From: an uncultured Flavobacteriaceae bacterium
GTDB taxonomy: Bacteria > Bacteroidota > Bacteroidia > Flavobacteriales > Flavobacteriaceae
Assembly (NCBI GenBank): GCA_947493535.1
Contig: CANLRK010000006.1
Span: forward strand, 1 to 64,000
Direction of reading: 5' to 3'
DNA length: 64,000 bases
In this document: positions 1-7,108 of the stretch, piece after piece
Position numbering within the stretch: the first letter of the stretch is position 1
How the letters are laid out: every line of letters starts with the position of its first letter
Program-made: the position numbers and the translations under genes
Notes under the pieces: generated by a model
The model's database searches: none
Seen by the model: only the letters and a program-made list of their open reading frames with translations
Told to the model about the DNA's origin: nothing

Positions 1-3000
1 CAAATCATTACGATTGACGATACTATTGCGCCAGTAATTGAAGCGGCACCTGCCAACATTACCGTAGAATGTATTGAAGATGTTCCTCCTATGATTAGCT
101 TGAACTATTCTGATAACTGTGATGCCAGTGGTACTGTACTTGGTGTGGATAGTGCTCTTGTAGGAGATACTTGTGGTGGAACAATTACACGTACTTGGAA
201 TGTAGCTGATATCTGTGGAAACAATGCCATTGAAGTAGCACAAATCATTACGATTGATGATACTATTGCGCCTAATATTTCCGCTTGTAATATTCAAGAT
301 TCAAATGAAGAATGTAGTGGGAACAACGAAACAGTTGCAGACAATTGGAATGCTGCAAACATAGCTGCTATTCAAGCTTGTGCTACTGATAACTGCGACA
401 CCAATTTAACAGTTACCTCCAACTATGACTTTAATAATTTAGATACAACCTGTGGACCATGTGGTTCAATTACAGCGACATATACGGTTACTGACGATTG
501 TGGTAACAGTAGTTCATTAGATGTTGTATTATCTTTTGATGATGTAACTGTACCCGACATTTCTGATTGTAATGTAACAAGCCTAACTTTAGAATGTGAT
601 GGTATGAATAACGAGACCATTGCTGATCAATGGAACCTTGACAATATTGCAGAGCTAGAAACCTGTGCTGAAGATCTTAATGTTACAGTTACCTCTAATT
701 ATTCATACAATAACTTAAGTACAACTTGTGGACAAGGTGGTACAATTCCAGTAACTTATATTATTGCTGATGATTGTAATAACAGAGCATTTTTAAATGT
801 AACATTAACATTTGAAGATACTACTCCACCAGATTTAACTAATTGTTCTGTAACTGACCAAACGTTAGAATGTGACGGTGAAAACAATGAAACATTAGCT
901 AACAACTGGAATGCCGCTAATATTGCTGCGCTTGAAGCTTGTGTTGGCGATAGTTGTGACCCTGACTTTTCAGGACAAATAAGTTCTAATTATAGCTATG
1001 ATAACTTAATTTCTACTTGTGGGCAAGGTGGTACAATTCCTGTAACCTATACCATTACTGATGACTGTGATAACAATGTAACTCTTGATGTAGTATTAAC
1101 TATTGAAGACTCTACCCCACCAGAATTAACTAACTGTTCTGTAACAGATCAGACATTAGAGTGTGATGGAGAAAATAACGAAGAGATGGCTAATAACTGG
1201 AACTTAGCAAATATTGCTGCGCTTGAAGCCTGTATAGGTGATAGCTGTGACCCTGATTTCTCAGGGCAAGTAAGTTCTAATTATTCATATAACAATTTAA
1301 ATTCATCTTGTGGACAAGGAGGAACTATTCCTGTAACCTATACCATTACTGATGATTGTGGTAACAGTATAACTCTTGATGTAGTTTTAACTATTGAAGA
1401 TTCTACTCCACCAGAATTATCTAACTGTTCTGTAACAGACCAGACTTTGGAGTGTGATGGAGAAAACAATGAAGAAATAGCTAGTAACTGGAATTTTGCA
1501 AATATTGCTGCGCTGGAAGCTTGTATAGGTGATAGCTGTGACCCTGATTTCTCAGGACAAGTAAGTTCCGATTATGACTTTAGTAACTTAAATACAACCT
1601 GTGGACAAGGCGGGACAATCCCTGTAACCTATACTATTACTGATGATTGTGGTAACAGTGTGACTCTTGACGTAGTATTAACTATTGAAGATTCTACTCC
1701 ACCAGATTTAGCTAATTGCTCTGTAACGAATGAAAATTTAGAATGTTCTGAAGATAACGAAACCGCAGCAGATAATTGGAATGCCGCTAATATCGCAGCT
1801 CTTGAAGCTTGTGTTGGTGATAGCTGCGACCCTGATTTCTCAGGGCAAGTAAGTTCTGATTATGACTTTGATAACTTAAACACAACATGTGGACCGTGTG
1901 GTAACATTAGTGTTACTTACACTATCACTGACGATTGTGGTAATAGCACAACGCTTGTAGCCGTACTATCATTTGATGACAACACTGTGCCTGATTTATC
2001 AGAATGTAATGTAGTAGATACTTCATTAGAGTGTGATGGAGAAAATAATGAAGCCATGGCCGATCAATGGAATGCAGCTAATTTAGCTGCGCTTGAAACA
2101 TGTGCTGAAGACTTAAATGTTACTATAGCATCTAACTATAGTTATGAAAACTTAGCTACTACATGTGGCCAAGGAGGAACAATCCCTGTAACATATACCG
2201 TTACTGATGATTGTGGTAACAGCGTAGCACTTGATGTTGTGTTAACTATTGAAGATTCTACTCCACCAGAATTAGCTAACTGTTCTGTAACAGATCAAAC
2301 ATTAGAATGTGATGGAGAAAACAATGAAACAATGGCTAACAATTGGAATGCTGCTAACATTGCTGCTCTTGAAACTTGTATAGGTGATAGTTGCGACCCT
2401 GATTTTTCAGGACAAGTAAGTTCTAACTTTAACTTTGAAAACCTAAGCACTACTTGTGGAGGTGGTGGTACTATTCCTGTAACCTATACCATTACTGACG
2501 ATTGTGGAAACAGTGTAACTCTTAATGTAGTATTAACTATTGAAGACTCTACTCCACCAGAATTAACGGAAGGAAACGATGGGTTTGCAGAATGTACAGG
2601 TACAGACCCTGCTCTTAACAATGAATATATAGCTTGGAGAGAAAGCTTTGCAGGAATTGAAATAATTGAAGACTGTAGTAAAGCTAACTTAAGCGCCATA
2701 GAAGGCGAATGGATCTCAGACGGTTGTTCTAACTCAATAACCATCGAAGTTATTGCTACTGATGAATGTGGATTACAATCGCTACCACAATTAAGAACAT
2801 TTACAATTTCTGATACTACCGCACCAGAACTTGTAGAAGATTTAGATGATGTTGTATTCTATTGCAACGAAGTGCCGCCAGTACCTGAAATAGAAATTGA
2901 AGAGGCCTGTTCAATAGAAGCTAATGTTGTGTTTACTGAAACTACTGAAGGTACTCAAGGTCAAAGTAATTATCAAATTATAAGAACATGGGTATTAACA

Positions 3001-3369
3001 GATGATTGTGGTAATGAAACCATTAAAGAACAAGTATTGCTTGTTGAACCAGGATGTAATTGTTTAGATGATAAATTTATTTCAAAAGTAATTACTCCTA
3101 ATGGAGATATTTATAACGATTACTTTAAAGTTGAAAATATTGATGACTGTGGTGTTCCTACACTAAAAATATTCAATCGTTGGGGGAACTTAGTTTACCA
3201 AAGTGATGATTATGATTCTAAAAAAGGAAGATGGCGAGGAACAAATCATGAAGGACTTAAAATTGGTACAAATAACGAATTACCAACAGGTACCTATTAC
3301 TATATCATCGAAATTAAAAATACTGATATAAGACCAATAACCGGACATGTTTACTTAAGCACTAAATAA
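1..3369 (+). CDS. Giant Cys-rich repeat adhesin with type B T9SS sorting domain (5' end outside window)
   Basis: The reading frame is open from base 1, so the N-terminus lies upstream. The first part is HYR-like with a period near 80 residues: bases 1-32 recur at 241-272 with one change. Eight Cys-rich units of 91-98 residues follow (bases 271-2553), carrying motifs such as LECDGENNE, CGQGGTIPVTYTITDDCGNS and TIEDSTPP. After a short divergent stretch, the last 100 residues (ITPNGDIYND, FNRWGNLVYQ, PTGTYYYIIE) form a CHU_C / gliding-motility-associated C-terminal domain, the type B T9SS export signal. By family it is a surface-exposed adhesin; the many Cys in each unit suggest disulfide-stabilised modules. 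The genes directly downstream encode a SprF-like barrel (21-base gap) and a PorE-like protein, which supports secretion as a dedicated cargo. The ligand is unknown. Confidence 0.9.
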   Translation, partial: QIITIDDTIAPVIEAAPANITVECIEDVPPMISLNYSDNCDASGTVLGVDSALVGDTCGGTITRTWNVADICGNNAIEVAQIITIDDTIAPNISACNIQDSNEECSGNNETVADNWNAANIAAIQACATDNCDTNLTVTSNYDFNNLDTTCGPCGSITATYTVTDDCGNSSSLDVVLSFDDVTVPDISDCNVTSLTLECDGMNNETIADQWNLDNIAELETCAEDLNVTVTSNYSYNNLSTTCGQGGTIPVTYIIADDCNNRAFLNVTLTFEDTTPPDLTNCSVTDQTLECDGENNETLANNWNAANIAALEACVGDSCDPDFSGQISSNYSYDNLISTCGQGGTIPVTYTITDDCDNNVTLDVVLTIEDSTPPELTNCSVTDQTLECDGENNEEMANNWNLANIAALEACIGDSCDPDFSGQVSSNYSYNNLNSSCGQGGTIPVTYTITDDCGNSITLDVVLTIEDSTPPELSNCSVTDQTLECDGENNEEIASNWNFANIAALEACIGDSCDPDFSGQVSSDYDFSNLNTTCGQGGTIPVTYTITDDCGNSVTLDVVLTIEDSTPPDLANCSVTNENLECSEDNETAADNWNAANIAALEACVGDSCDPDFSGQVSSDYDFDNLNTTCGPCGNISVTYTITDDCGNSTTLVAVLSFDDNTVPDLSECNVVDTSLECDGENNEAMADQWNAANLAALETCAEDLNVTIASNYSYENLATTCGQGGTIPVTYTVTDDCGNSVALDVVLTIEDSTPPELANCSVTDQTLECDGENNETMANNWNAANIAALETCIGDSCDPDFSGQVSSNFNFENLSTTCGGGGTIPVTYTITDDCGNSVTLNVVLTIEDSTPPELTEGNDGFAECTGTDPALNNEYIAWRESFAGIEIIEDCSKANLSAIEGEWISDGCSNSITIEVIATDECGLQSLPQLRTFTISDTTAPELVEDLDDVVFYCNEVPPVPEIEIEEACSIEANVVFTETTEGTQGQSNYQIIRTWVLTDDCGNETIKEQVLLVEPGCNCLDDKFISKVITPNGDIYNDYFKVENIDDCGVPTLKIFNRWGNLVYQSDDYDSKKGRWRGTNHEGLKIGTNNELPTGTYYYIIEIKNTDIRPITGHVYLSTK
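271..2553 (+). repeat. Eight in-frame coding repeats of about 95 codons
   Basis: Eight tandem units lie inside the adhesin gene. Units 1 and 6 carry GPCG and end in a FDD-TVPD type junction. Units 2 and 7 are shorter and have AEDLNVT where the others have GDSCDPDFSGQ. Units 3, 4, 5 and 8 carry CGQGG or CGGGG and end in EDSTPP. The order is therefore A-B-C-C-C-A-B-C. Units 3, 4, 5 and 8 are nearly identical in protein sequence, which suggests recent duplication or gene conversion. Confidence 0.9.
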
Positions 3370-3390
3370 TAACCTTAATACACAATCAAT

Positions 3391-4305
3391 ATGAAAAAGT
3401 TAATTATAATCATGATTAGCCTACTTAGTGCCCCAAATTTAGTAAACGCACAACAACAGCCACAGTTTACACACTATATGTACAATACTGTAGCAGTAAA
3501 CCCAGCCTATGCTGGTAGTAGAGGTGCATTGTATGCCGTAGCTGTAAACAGAAATCAATGGGTAGGAGTTGATGATGCTCCTAGAACATCAACCATATCT
3601 GCAAACACTCCATTAAGAAACAATAAAATGGGATTAGGATTATCAATAATGAACGATCAAGCAGGTTATGAGAACTTTACATCTTTTTATATAGACTACT
3701 CTTACACCATTAAATTAAAAGAAGAACAATTTCTATCTTTTGGTATGAAGGGTGGTTTTAGCCAATATAAAATTGATGAAGAATTATTTGGATTCCCTTC
3801 TGTATATGAAGATCCGGCATTCCAAAATAAATTAAATAGATGGACACCTAATATCGGTGCAGGAGCTTATTATCATTCTAACAAATGGTATTTAGGGCTA
3901 TCTTCTCCTCGATTGCTTTCAAATGATTACAACAAAAATGATGATTATGTTGCCTTAGAAAGAAATCACTATTATATGATTGGTGGGTATGTATTTGACT
4001 TGAGTCCAAACACAAAACTAAAGCCATCTTTTTCTACAAAGTATACAAAAGGTTCGCCTTTATCGGTTGAAGTAAGTGCATTATTTCTGCTTTATGAAAA
4101 ATTTTGGATTGGTGGCTCTTTCAGGCATGATGATGCTATAGGAGCGCTATTCGACTTTAAAATAACCAAGCAGTTTAGAGCAGGTTATGCTTATGAATAC
4201 TCCTTTTCAGATATACGACCATACACCTCAGGGTCACACGAAATTATATTAATTTATGAGTTCGTATTCCCTACTACTAAATACAAATCACCTAGATACT
4301 TTTAA
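3391..4305 (+). CDS. PorP/SprF family type IX secretion outer-membrane protein
   Basis: A 304-residue protein with a signal peptide ending near residue 20 (VNAQQQ), followed by the family's opening signature (QFTHYMYNTVAVNPAYAGSR) and alternating beta strands, ending in a long basic tail. SprF/PorP proteins are outer-membrane barrels that help bring type B CTD cargo, such as SprB, to the surface. The gene starts 21 bases after the adhesin stop and is followed after 2 bases by the PorE-like gene, so the three are almost certainly cotranscribed. It probably serves the adhesin just upstream; this is inferred from position. A full paralogue lies at 49537-50454. SprF itself is one of many paralogues in gliding Flavobacteriaceae, so no symbol is given. 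Confidence 0.92.
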   Translation: MKKLIIIMISLLSAPNLVNAQQQPQFTHYMYNTVAVNPAYAGSRGALYAVAVNRNQWVGVDDAPRTSTISANTPLRNNKMGLGLSIMNDQAGYENFTSFYIDYSYTIKLKEEQFLSFGMKGGFSQYKIDEELFGFPSVYEDPAFQNKLNRWTPNIGAGAYYHSNKWYLGLSSPRLLSNDYNKNDDYVALERNHYYMIGGYVFDLSPNTKLKPSFSTKYTKGSPLSVEVSALFLLYEKFWIGGSFRHDDAIGALFDFKITKQFRAGYAYEYSFSDIRPYTSGSHEIILIYEFVFPTTKYKSPRYF

Positions 4306-4307
4306 TC

Positions 4308-6218
4308 ATGAAAACATATATCACATACATTTGCTTTTTCCTATCAAGTATCATACTATATGCTCAAGGTGGGAAAATAAATCACGGAGACAAGCTTTTT
4401 AATAAATTCTCTTATGTAAAAGCTATCGAATTTTATAAAGATGCTTATCAAAAAGCACCTAACGATTTTCATTTAAACAAACAATTAGGAGACTGTTATA
4501 TGCTGTTACGTCAACCTCAAAATGCAGTCCCATACTATAAAAAAGTAGTACGTAACTCAGATGCAGATGCCAAATATTATTACGCATATGCACAAGCACT
4601 ACGAGCTTCAGGAGAATATAAAAAATCCGAAAAATGGATGCGTAAATTTAAAGCCACTGGAGTTATAGATTCGCGTGTAGAGCAATTTTTTAACAATTTA
4701 GATTTTGTTGACGTACTCTTGCAACGTAAGAAAAGATACGAAGTAACTATTAGCCCTTTAAACACTGTTAATAGTGATTATGGCGCAATCAAATACAAAG
4801 GAAACACCTATTTCGTATCTGCTCGAGAAGATGAAGATGCAAGTGTAAAGCGAGTTTACAATTGGAACAACCAACCTTTTTTAGATATTTTTAAAGTAAG
4901 TGACACTTCTGATGTTGTTATTAGAATGCCTGAAGGAGTAAATAGTAAATACCACGAAGGAGCCACTTGCTTTACACCAGACGGTAAATACATGTTTTTT
5001 ACCAGAAATAACGTATTTAACAAAAAAGAGATTAAAGATGATAAAGGAGTTAACAACCTGAAGATTTTTAAAGCCGAATGGATTGATGGAGAATGGAAAA
5101 ATAGCAAACCACTATTTTTTAGTAGTGATGACTATTCTGTGGGACATCCTTCTGTTAGTGCCGATGGTAAAAAATTGTTTTTTACCTCAGATATGCCTGG
5201 CGGTTATGGAGGTACAGATATATATGTTTCTGAAATTCATGAACGTGGTGGAGTTAGAAAACCAATTAATTTGGGTCCAGAAATAAACACTGAAGGAAAT
5301 GAAATGTTCCCATTTTATCACTCACCTGAAAAAAAATTATACTTTTCTTCGGAAGGACATTTAGGTTTAGGGCAGTTAGATGTGTTTGTAGCAGAATTTA
5401 ATGAAAAAGATGGAAACTACACCAATATTAATAACCTTGGAGAACCTATTAATAGTGCGAATGATGATTTTGCTTTTAATCTTAATGAACTAGGATCAGA
5501 AGGGTATCTTGCCTCAAACCGAGAAGGAGGAGTTGGAGATGATGACATTTACACCTTTACAAGAGTTAGAGATTTTACTCTAAAAGGAATTGTTACAGAT
5601 AAAATAACTCATGAACCACTTGAAAATGCAACAATCATATTATCTGACAGTAAAGGAGAAATTGTATTCGAAATTAAAACTGGTATGGATGGATATTATG
5701 AAAAACTAATTAAACGTGACGAAAACTATCAAATAAATGCCGACAAACCTAAGTTTGAAAACACTATAAAACCATTCAATTCATACAATCAAGAATCGTT
5801 TACTGAAATGATTGTAAACCTAGAGCTTGACCCGTTAAAAGATATGAATGTATTAGCCGGTTTAAGCGCAGATATTATCTATTTTGACTTTGATAAAAGT
5901 ATTATAAGAGAAGATGCAAAACCAGAGTTGAATAAAATAATCAATGTAATGAATAAGTATAAAGACATGATTATTTTCATTGAGTCTCATACAGATTCAA
6001 GAGGTTCAGCTAAATATAACGAAAAACTGTCTTCTAGAAGAGCTGCCGCTACTTACAACTATCTTATTGAAAACGGAATAGCTCCTGAAAGAATCAGCTC
6101 ATACAAAGGTTATGGTGAATATAAATTAACAAATGATTGTGGTGATGGTAAAAAATGTGACGAAGATCAACATCAAGCCAATAGACGTACTGAGTTTGTT
6201 ATTGAAAAAATGATGTAA
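4308..6218 (+). CDS. PorE-like OmpA protein: TPR, PD40 propeller, carboxypeptidase-D regulatory-like domain, OmpA
   Basis: A 636-residue protein with a signal peptide (cleavage near LYAQ, residue 20). Domains in order are TPR-like helices (about 25-130), a PD40/WD40-like beta-propeller (about 150-415, with repeats such as YFSSEGHLGLG and ASNREGGVGDDDIY), a carboxypeptidase-regulatory-like sandwich (about 420-500), and a C-terminal OmpA domain (about 515-636) with the peptidoglycan-binding pattern SHTDSRG and LSSRRA. This is the architecture of PorE, a T9SS component thought to anchor the machinery to the cell wall. It is the last gene of the adhesin-SprF-PorE set. A second copy of the same length and order lies at 47609-49519. 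The hairpin array begins at the base after its stop codon. Confidence 0.88.
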   Translation: MKTYITYICFFLSSIILYAQGGKINHGDKLFNKFSYVKAIEFYKDAYQKAPNDFHLNKQLGDCYMLLRQPQNAVPYYKKVVRNSDADAKYYYAYAQALRASGEYKKSEKWMRKFKATGVIDSRVEQFFNNLDFVDVLLQRKKRYEVTISPLNTVNSDYGAIKYKGNTYFVSAREDEDASVKRVYNWNNQPFLDIFKVSDTSDVVIRMPEGVNSKYHEGATCFTPDGKYMFFTRNNVFNKKEIKDDKGVNNLKIFKAEWIDGEWKNSKPLFFSSDDYSVGHPSVSADGKKLFFTSDMPGGYGGTDIYVSEIHERGGVRKPINLGPEINTEGNEMFPFYHSPEKKLYFSSEGHLGLGQLDVFVAEFNEKDGNYTNINNLGEPINSANDDFAFNLNELGSEGYLASNREGGVGDDDIYTFTRVRDFTLKGIVTDKITHEPLENATIILSDSKGEIVFEIKTGMDGYYEKLIKRDENYQINADKPKFENTIKPFNSYNQESFTEMIVNLELDPLKDMNVLAGLSADIIYFDFDKSIIREDAKPELNKIINVMNKYKDMIIFIESHTDSRGSAKYNEKLSSRRAAATYNYLIENGIAPERISSYKGYGEYKLTNDCGDGKKCDEDQHQANRRTEFVIEKMM

Positions 6219-6455
6219 AAAAACTGCTTTGGTCTAAATATCGAAGATTGTGTAATTATTAGGGTTTAAGTTGATATCAACCCAAAGCAGTTTTTCCATT
6301 AATAATAAAATTACTTCGCAAAATATTAATATGTGTATTACTTGGGTTTATATTTATTTTGTGGAGTAATTTTAACAAGATAAAACTACTTTATGTTACA
6401 TTTAAAATTGTGTAATTATTAGGGTTTAAGTTAAATAATAGCATAAAGTAGTTTT
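6219..6455. other. Array of three hairpins with a shared conserved loop and covarying stems
   Basis: Three hairpins fill the gap between the PorE-like gene and pdxH. Hairpin 1 (6219-6295) has a perfect 14-bp outer stem (6219-6232 with 6282-6295) and an inner stem 6238-6242/6273-6277. Hairpin 2 (6307-6373) has an 18-bp stem (6307-6324 with 6356-6373, two G-U pairs) and inner pairing 6328-6332/6350-6354. Hairpin 3 (6382-6455) has a perfect 14-bp stem (6382-6395 with 6442-6455) and inner stem 6400-6405/6431-6436. The loops of 1 and 3 share an identical 26-base sequence (6247-6272 and 6407-6432, containing GTAATTATTAGGGTTTAAG); hairpin 2 has a version with about 20 of 24 matches from 6332. Stem bases differ between copies but stay paired. 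The A-run/T-run flanks mean each could also terminate transcription in either direction. No known RNA or DNA element was recognised. Confidence 0.85.
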
Positions 6456-6463
6456 TTATATTT

Positions 6464-7108
6464 TCATGGTGCCAAGCGCTCTATTTTCCAGGAATAATCT
6501 TTTTGTAATTGATAACGAATTCTATCATGTAATCTGTTTGGTCTACCCTGCCAAAATTCAATCTCAACAGGTTTAACTATATACCCTCCCCAATGTTTTG
6601 GGCGAGTAACTGGCTTGCTTTTATATTCTTTCTCTAAAGCTTTTAATTTTTCTTCCAATTCAGTTCTGCTAATTACCTCACTTTGATTAGAAACTAAAGC
6701 TCCAAGCTGACTACCTTTAGGACGAGATTCAAAATAACCATCTGATAAATTTTCGGCTATTTTTTCTGCAGTTCCTTTAATAATTATTTGTCTTTCAGCA
6801 GCATGCCAGAAAAAAGATAAGCATACATGGTTATTATTTGCTATTGCTTTTCCTTTTTCACTATTATAATTGGTATAAAATATAAATCCTTCATGGGTGT
6901 ATTTTTTTAATAGCACTACCCTACTTTTTGGAAAACCATCTAAACCCATAGTAGAAACCGTCATTGCATTAGCCTCATCAACCGTACCAGAATTATCCAC
7001 CTCATAAAACCATGTCTGAAACAATTGTAGAGGGTTATCAGGAACTTCTGCAAGTAACAATTTTTGTTTTTCGTAGGATTTCCTATAATTACTTAAATCT
7101 TTATTCAT
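6464..7108 (-). CDS. pdxH: Pyridoxamine 5'-phosphate oxidase
   Basis: A 214-residue protein of normal family length. It oxidises pyridoxine or pyridoxamine 5'-phosphate to pyridoxal 5'-phosphate with FMN in the cytoplasm. Family signatures are SRVVLLKKY (FMN-binding segment near residue 63), FYTNYNSEKGKA, and the C-terminal signature HWGGYIVKP followed by EFWQGRPNRLHDR. The gene converges on the PorE-like gene; only the triple-hairpin array separates them, so hairpin 3 may serve as its terminator. It is transcribed away from the SRPBCC gene at 7177. Confidence 0.96.
   Translation of the reverse strand: MNKDLSNYRKSYEKQKLLLAEVPDNPLQLFQTWFYEVDNSGTVDEANAMTVSTMGLDGFPKSRVVLLKKYTHEGFIFYTNYNSEKGKAIANNNHVCLSFFWHAAERQIIIKGTAEKIAENLSDGYFESRPKGSQLGALVSNQSEVISRTELEEKLKALEKEYKSKPVTRPKHWGGYIVKPVEIEFWQGRPNRLHDRIRYQLQKDYSWKIERLAP

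Follow-up and report, generated by a model that had tools for sequence, protein, structure and literature searches.

Three tandem hairpins with conserved apical modules behind a porE-like gene: a candidate RNA element of a flavobacterial genus

In the genome of an uncultured marine member of the Flavobacteriaceae, the gap between the stop codon of a PorE-like gene (position 6218) and the pdxH gene is filled by three tandem hairpins (6219-6455; positions are those of the window, i.e., the whole stretch of 64,000 nucleotides that was analysed). Across three genomes of one genus, selection acts both on the pairing of the outer stems and on the loop carried by hairpins 1 and 3 (here called the class A loop), and the hairpin cluster looks like a real, unnamed RNA element. 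The best explanation, in which we place about even confidence, is a terminator-type hairpin cluster in the 3'UTR, the apical modules of which are candidate recognition sites for a factor.

Three genes precede the hairpins on the same strand. The first (91-3369, +) is the 3' part of a large gene for an adhesin-like protein with a T9SS type B sorting domain (CHU_C). It lies at the start of contig C6 and is truncated there, probably at its repeats. It is followed by a gene for a PorP/SprF family protein (3391-4305, +) and by the gene for the PorE-like OmpA/PD40/TPR protein (4308-6218, +), which scores under the NCBIfam PorE cut-off and the stop codon of which abuts hairpin 1. On the other side, pdxH (6464-7108, -) is convergent to the cluster. 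The preliminary description of this DNA had the hairpins occupy the entire gap, which is fair, with spacers of ~7-11 nt between them.

Folding predicts a general layout in which an outer stem of ~14-20 bp leads through a variable internal loop to a short inner stem, which is followed by a 3-nt bulge on the 3' side and by an apical loop that varies somewhat among the predicted folds. Hairpin 1 (6219-6295, +) has perfect outer arms of 14 bp, an inner stem formed by 6238-6244 and 6271-6277, and a class A apical module (ATTGTGTAATTATTAGGGTTTAAGTT; 6247-6272, +). Hairpin 3 (6382-6455, +), with arms of 28 nt that are 79% complementary, carries the other class A module (6407-6432, +). The loops of these two hairpins, read in the same orientation, agree at 28 of 29 bases, among them the run of 26 that had been pointed out before. 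Hairpin 2 (6306-6374, +), with arms of 20 nt that are 90% complementary, is the most diverged copy; its loop, called class B, is related to that of hairpins 1 and 3 but shorter, and its apical core is TGTGTATTACTTGGGTTT (6332-6349, +). In the window, hairpins 1 and 3 have a predicted terminal loop of 7 nt (UAAUUAU), and that of hairpin 2 measures 15 nt. The preliminary description had located all three hairpins, the first and the third with the same boundaries as found here and the second one base narrower at each end; it correctly reported compensatory exchanges among the stems and two G-U pairs in hairpin 2. It was also right that the loop of hairpin 2 is related to the others, but the proposed ~20 of 24 matching bases is slightly generous, as an ungapped comparison gives 16 of 21.

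The predicted folds are strong. The whole region reaches -65.2 kcal/mol vs. -38.4 ± 4.3 for shuffled sequences (z -6.2), with none of 200 shuffles as good, and the z values for the individual hairpins 1, 2 and 3 are -6.1, -6.6 and -4.2, respectively. A scan of the window for perfect 12-bp inverted repeats with a spacer of 20-60 nt produced 11 overlapping matches at five places, two of which are these hairpins, against a mean of 0.6 matches in 20 mononucleotide shuffles. The 20-mer core of the loop, with up to three mismatches allowed, occurs only twice in the window, vs. a mean of 0.10 in shuffles. As a separate observation, the class A loop, when reverse-complemented, is similar to the stretch at the junction of the adhesin-like and porP genes (3351-3390; ACTTAA...ACACAATC).

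The genus was sampled with four genomes, i.e., the source genome (G000), Kordia sp. NORP58 (G001), G002, and an uncultured Kordia MAG (G003), two of which are 80-82% complete. A DNA search gave matches in all four at E up to 0.001. However, the match in G002 (E 8e-4) is a different stretch that sits before a different gene, and this genome (80% complete) yielded no pdxH match and porE-like matches of only ~38-39% identity. With model R1, three strong copies each were found in G000, G001 and G003, giving nine hairpins in total. The further copies that the preliminary description had asked for thus turned up in two other genomes, with their pairing kept. In G003 (CAJXHW010000116.1), the three hairpins are found at the same place and in the same order. 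In G001, contig C27 has hairpins 1 and 2 behind the porE-like gene; a gene for a 167-aa protein comes next, and then a large adhesin-like gene begins. Contig C30 (NVVR01000014.1) contains the end of an adhesin-like gene, then hairpin 3, and then pdxH. We infer that these contigs are adjacent and represent one locus split by assembly, in which hairpins 2 and 3 are separated by an extra gene pair. Over their final 175 bases, two adhesin-like genes of G001 are identical at 172 positions (L040 5876-6050, minus strand; L041 about 4704-4878), which would explain the contig break and suggests that the T9SS sorting domain was recently duplicated or converted. The 167-aa protein (L040 2052-2555) has a match in one of the four genus genomes, G001, and none in the other three, two of which are 80-82% complete, and it has no match in Pfam or NCBIfam at E 0.001. 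Between hairpin 2 and its gene, two copies of a small direct repeat, GTGAAGTTTTCGTTTGGGTAAACG, were seen by eye (L040 2595-2670).

The order of the loop classes, A-B-A, is kept in the three genomes, and in all nine hairpins the orientation of the loop is the direction of the preceding gene, which in G001 is the porE-like gene on one contig and an adhesin-like gene on the other. In the source genome, the 23-mer of the loop with up to three mismatches is found at two places, both at this locus. A looser pattern of 16 positions (14 fixed bases, one mismatch) finds these two and eight more places, ten in all, and two when reversed; four of the eight (L005-L008) were inspected by eye, and none is this hairpin. 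Beyond the locus, model R1 yielded only two weak matches in this genome (E 0.65 and 0.97). At the other porE-like genes of these genomes, one of which (at 47.5 kb of the window) was viewed directly, no copy of the hairpins was found, and therefore no regulon is seen.

Selection was assessed in an alignment of the nine hairpins from three genomes with a structure of 23 pairs. In these few sequences, the cells of which are not independent events, 95.5% of the paired cells can pair vs. 90.0 ± 0.9% after shuffling (0 of 500 shuffles reach this), a score that is biased toward the structure, which was drawn from folds of the same sequences; double changes therefore weigh more. Eight of the 23 pairs have changed on both sides, vs. 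2.8 in shuffles, and the covariation score is 0.332 vs. 0.212, neither of which is reached by any of 500 shuffles; the count of further pair types is unremarkable (99 of 500 shuffles reach it). When the pairing partner is slid by one base, pairing falls to 50-60%. The double changes affect seven of 13 pairs in the outer helix, one of five in the inner helix and none of five in the apical helix, so that the covariation support sits mainly in the outer helix. Orthologous hairpins are also separated by double changes, in seven of nine comparisons.

The core of the class A loop is identical at all 26 positions between G000 and G003, both in hairpin 1 and in hairpin 3, and at 24-25 of 26 positions in comparison with G001. 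This identity is not due to recent descent, because fourfold sites in the neighboring porE-like and pdxH genes are only 38-52% identical among the three genomes (38% and 52% for the pair G000-G003). The chance of 26 identities out of 26 is ~1.5e-10 at the pooled fourfold identity and 7e-7 at the third-position identity of pdxH in the same pair. The loop of hairpin 2 is far less conserved, with 19 of 28 identical bases between G000 and G003 and 20 of 25 and 20 of 28 in the other comparisons; judged from these alignments, conservation of class B is limited to its core TGTGTATTACTTGGG, which hairpin 2 retains in each of the three genomes. The earlier suggestion of selection on structure plus a fixed loop therefore stands for the pairing, which is kept in two other genomes, and for the loops of hairpins 1 and 3, but has to be narrowed to the core in the case of hairpin 2.

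The nine hairpins also reveal which strand is concerned. A G-U pair on one strand would appear as an A-C mismatch on the other strand. On the porE-sense strand, the G-U and A-C cells number nine and zero in the outer helix, eight and one in the inner helix, and 20 and zero in the apical helix. Moreover, the sense strand folds better than the antisense strand in all nine cases, narrowly so in hairpin 1 of the window (-24.1 vs. -23.4) and widely in most others. Pairing is thus maintained on the strand that runs in the porE direction. Because of this wobble polarity and the better folding of the sense strand, the selected molecule is most likely an RNA made in the direction of the adhesin operon, although these two features by themselves would also fit a folded strand of DNA with that polarity.

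Outside the genus, no convincing copy was found in samples of the family and the order, in viral contigs, or in phages and plasmids, with some of these searches being strict. The strict loop pattern was present in two of 199 family genomes and model R1 matched two of 396 (237 genera sampled), each time both from this genus; samples of more than 40 genomes were searched with stricter filters, which can lose weak copies. Among 39 relatives, R1 gave some match (E up to 1) in ten, but a strong one (E below 1e-6) only in G000, G001 and G003, and the weak matches, judged by eye, are plain terminators or chance. Of 395 genomes of the order, three were matched by model R2 with an E of at most 0.01; of the two matches outside the genus, one falls on the end of a coding region (E 0.0017) and the other is a plain terminator (E 0.0075). 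In contigs of 84,980 species, the strict pattern retrieved three stretches, i.e., CAJXHW010000116.1 of G003, NVVR01000014.1 of G001, and a Ferruginibacter match in which no enclosing hairpin was seen by eye. Viral contigs had no match to the strict pattern, and phages and plasmids contained short chance pieces only, such as one in a Listeria phage that covers 17% of the query (E 0.07). In a Nostoc plasmid, a 25-nt identity (E 0.02) is not continued by the GGGTTTAAG part.

The element was compared with known RNA families and hairpin systems. With Rfam 15 at the gathering cut-off, only a tRNA was detected in the window and nothing at the hairpin locus, where the best score is for snoZ157 (17.5 of 55 bits, E 0.95). 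No prior description was recognised among titles and beginnings of abstracts, which cover the literature in part, and the available part of a paper on flavobacterial transcription and the gliding operon mentions no such 3' hairpin element (PMC9723704). The Flavo-1 motif named there is likewise a computationally inferred RNA motif of Flavobacteriaceae, but it is placed in 5' regions (PMC9723704), and the present search gave no Flavo-1 match, whether at the gathering score or with E allowed to reach 1. In the available part of another source, hairpin clusters acting as terminators are described (PMC8355165). The present cluster resembles these intrinsic terminator clusters in that adjacent hairpins are <15 nt apart and come soon past the stop codon of an operon, but differs from them in its apical module of ~26 nt kept across species, its long loops, and its three copies in two ordered loop classes. 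ANTAR regulators also target hairpins in tandem, the conserved loop bases of which are recognised by the RNA-binding protein; these hairpins are coupled to a terminator, so that binding controls termination (PMC3369931). The ANTAR motif has hexanucleotide loops, the first base being A and the fourth G, and lies in 5' leaders in the cases described there (PMC3369931); the element described here lies at a 3' end, and none of its predicted terminal loops, of 7 nt (UAAUUAU, hairpins 1 and 3) or 15 nt (hairpin 2), is such a hexaloop. By analogy, it may work in a manner comparable to ANTAR-bound tandem hairpins without belonging to their loop type.

Several other explanations can be weighed against a terminator cluster with recognition modules. 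The hairpins could be ordinary terminators that are alike only through recent duplication or gene conversion. Their outer arms are indeed like those of plain terminators, terminator hairpin clusters are described as common in the available part of PMC8355165, and both class A copies of G001 lack one base that is found in G000 and G003, which conversion would also produce. However, the loop identity is kept between species at near-saturated neutral divergence, and the class B core remains distinct at the same position in three genomes. Also, downstream of 18 other porE-like genes (17 from other genera and one from G002), a plain hairpin (perfect arms of 8 bp, loop of 3-12) is found within 200 nt in 13, but the exact loop motif in none, with a chance match with one substitution within 350 nt in two. 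Mere duplication is thus unlikely. A role at the DNA level, as a folded single-strand site for recombination or transposition or as an integron-like cassette site beside a changing adhesin gene, appears highly improbable to us, even though a single folded DNA strand would likewise give G-T polarity, the extra gene pair of G001 apparently sits between hairpins 2 and 3, and the 167-aa protein is without a match in the other three genomes. Unlike in attC exchange, the number and order of the hairpins are equal with and without the extra genes, and no integron integrase scores above the TIGR02249 cut-off in the four genus genomes, two of them 80-82% complete; scores below this cut-off occur in all four and likewise in 13 of 14 control genomes. 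Strong matches are confined to one place in G000, one in G003, and two G001 contigs read as one broken locus, i.e., the dispersed copies that characterise REP- or MITE-type mobile repeats were not found in these three genomes, and the strict-pattern search of viral contigs and the searches of phages and plasmids point the same way. The hairpin substrate for a recombinase or transposase that had been suggested earlier is therefore disfavored by wobble polarity, sense-strand folding, the lack of dispersed copies, and the constant hairpin number despite apparent gene gain or loss.

Alternatively, the hairpins might be released from the 3'UTR as short sibling regulatory RNAs, the conserved loop of which pairs with target mRNAs. 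Tandem siblings, a fixed and partly single-stranded stretch, and terminator-like stems fit this possibility. In a duplex scan of the loop against 12,792 windows of 40 nt, with overlaps thinned before ranking, the adhesin-PorP junction, at a site immediately ahead of the start codon of porP, reached -21.7 kcal/mol, which is rank 5 and third among the non-self sites. It is the best of 18 start regions, the other 17 of which, including the porE-like start L098, range from -5.2 to -10.3; 19 of 20 PorP places were tried in this comparison, with the contig-end fragment L104 left out, and L092 gave no start. However, the orthologous junction in G001 pairs poorly with its class A loops (-10.2 and -8.9, ranks 843 and 1542 of 5194) and with its class B loop (-14.9, rank 207). 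This comparison is between G000 and G001, as the contig of G003 begins inside the porE-like gene. Furthermore, no antisense to the 23-mer of the loop was found with up to three mismatches in any of the four genus genomes. The duplex of the loop with this junction, which is strong in the window but not kept in G001, is thus a weak lead, and regulation by sibling RNAs is rather unlikely. Separately, the loop as an antisense to porP codons, considered when a fuzzy scan touched the conserved N-terminal region of PorP, was rejected, with ~489 better windows among the 12,792.

The terminator-type cluster with apical recognition modules, proposed because the outer arms resemble those of plain terminators in other genomes (L027; L107), would work as follows. 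The three hairpins would form the structured 3' end of an adhesin-PorP-PorE transcript, in which the outer stems would terminate transcription or protect the 3' end. A factor acting in trans, most probably a protein, would bind the apical module (inner stem, 3-nt bulge and apical loop) at the RNA level, and this binding would set termination, read-through toward pdxH, or the stability of the adhesin mRNA. Three copies would permit cooperative or graded binding. By eye, T-runs follow the stems in most copies of G000 and G003 and are weak in those of G001; no hairpin of the cluster in the window was called by a simple terminator scan, which accepts only loops of 3-8. The preliminary description had argued that simple terminators need no such loop. 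The conserved module is unusual indeed, but the contrast was drawn too sharply, as the outer arms are like terminator arms elsewhere in the order; from the sequences compared, the module is the unusual part of hairpins whose outer arms look like those of ordinary terminators.

No partner of the apical module was found when loop pairing within the adhesin operon and palindromes in the terminal loops were considered. The palindrome TAATTA is present in all six class A loops and the near-palindrome GTATTAC in all three class B loops; they would permit loop-loop contact, though short AT-rich palindromes are frequent by chance. A more specific proposal, which we consider unlikely, is that of a genus-specific RNA module of three terminators with a shared receptor loop in the order A-B-A, through which expression of the T9SS adhesin genes would be coupled to an RNA-binding partner of their own or to contact between the loops of the hairpins.

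If a factor reads the loop, the cluster would represent a new form of 3'-end control of T9SS-secreted surface adhesins, and the fixed loop offers a direct bait for finding this factor, if one exists. If the loop has no partner, the cluster would be an example of a terminator loop that is held constant for other reasons.
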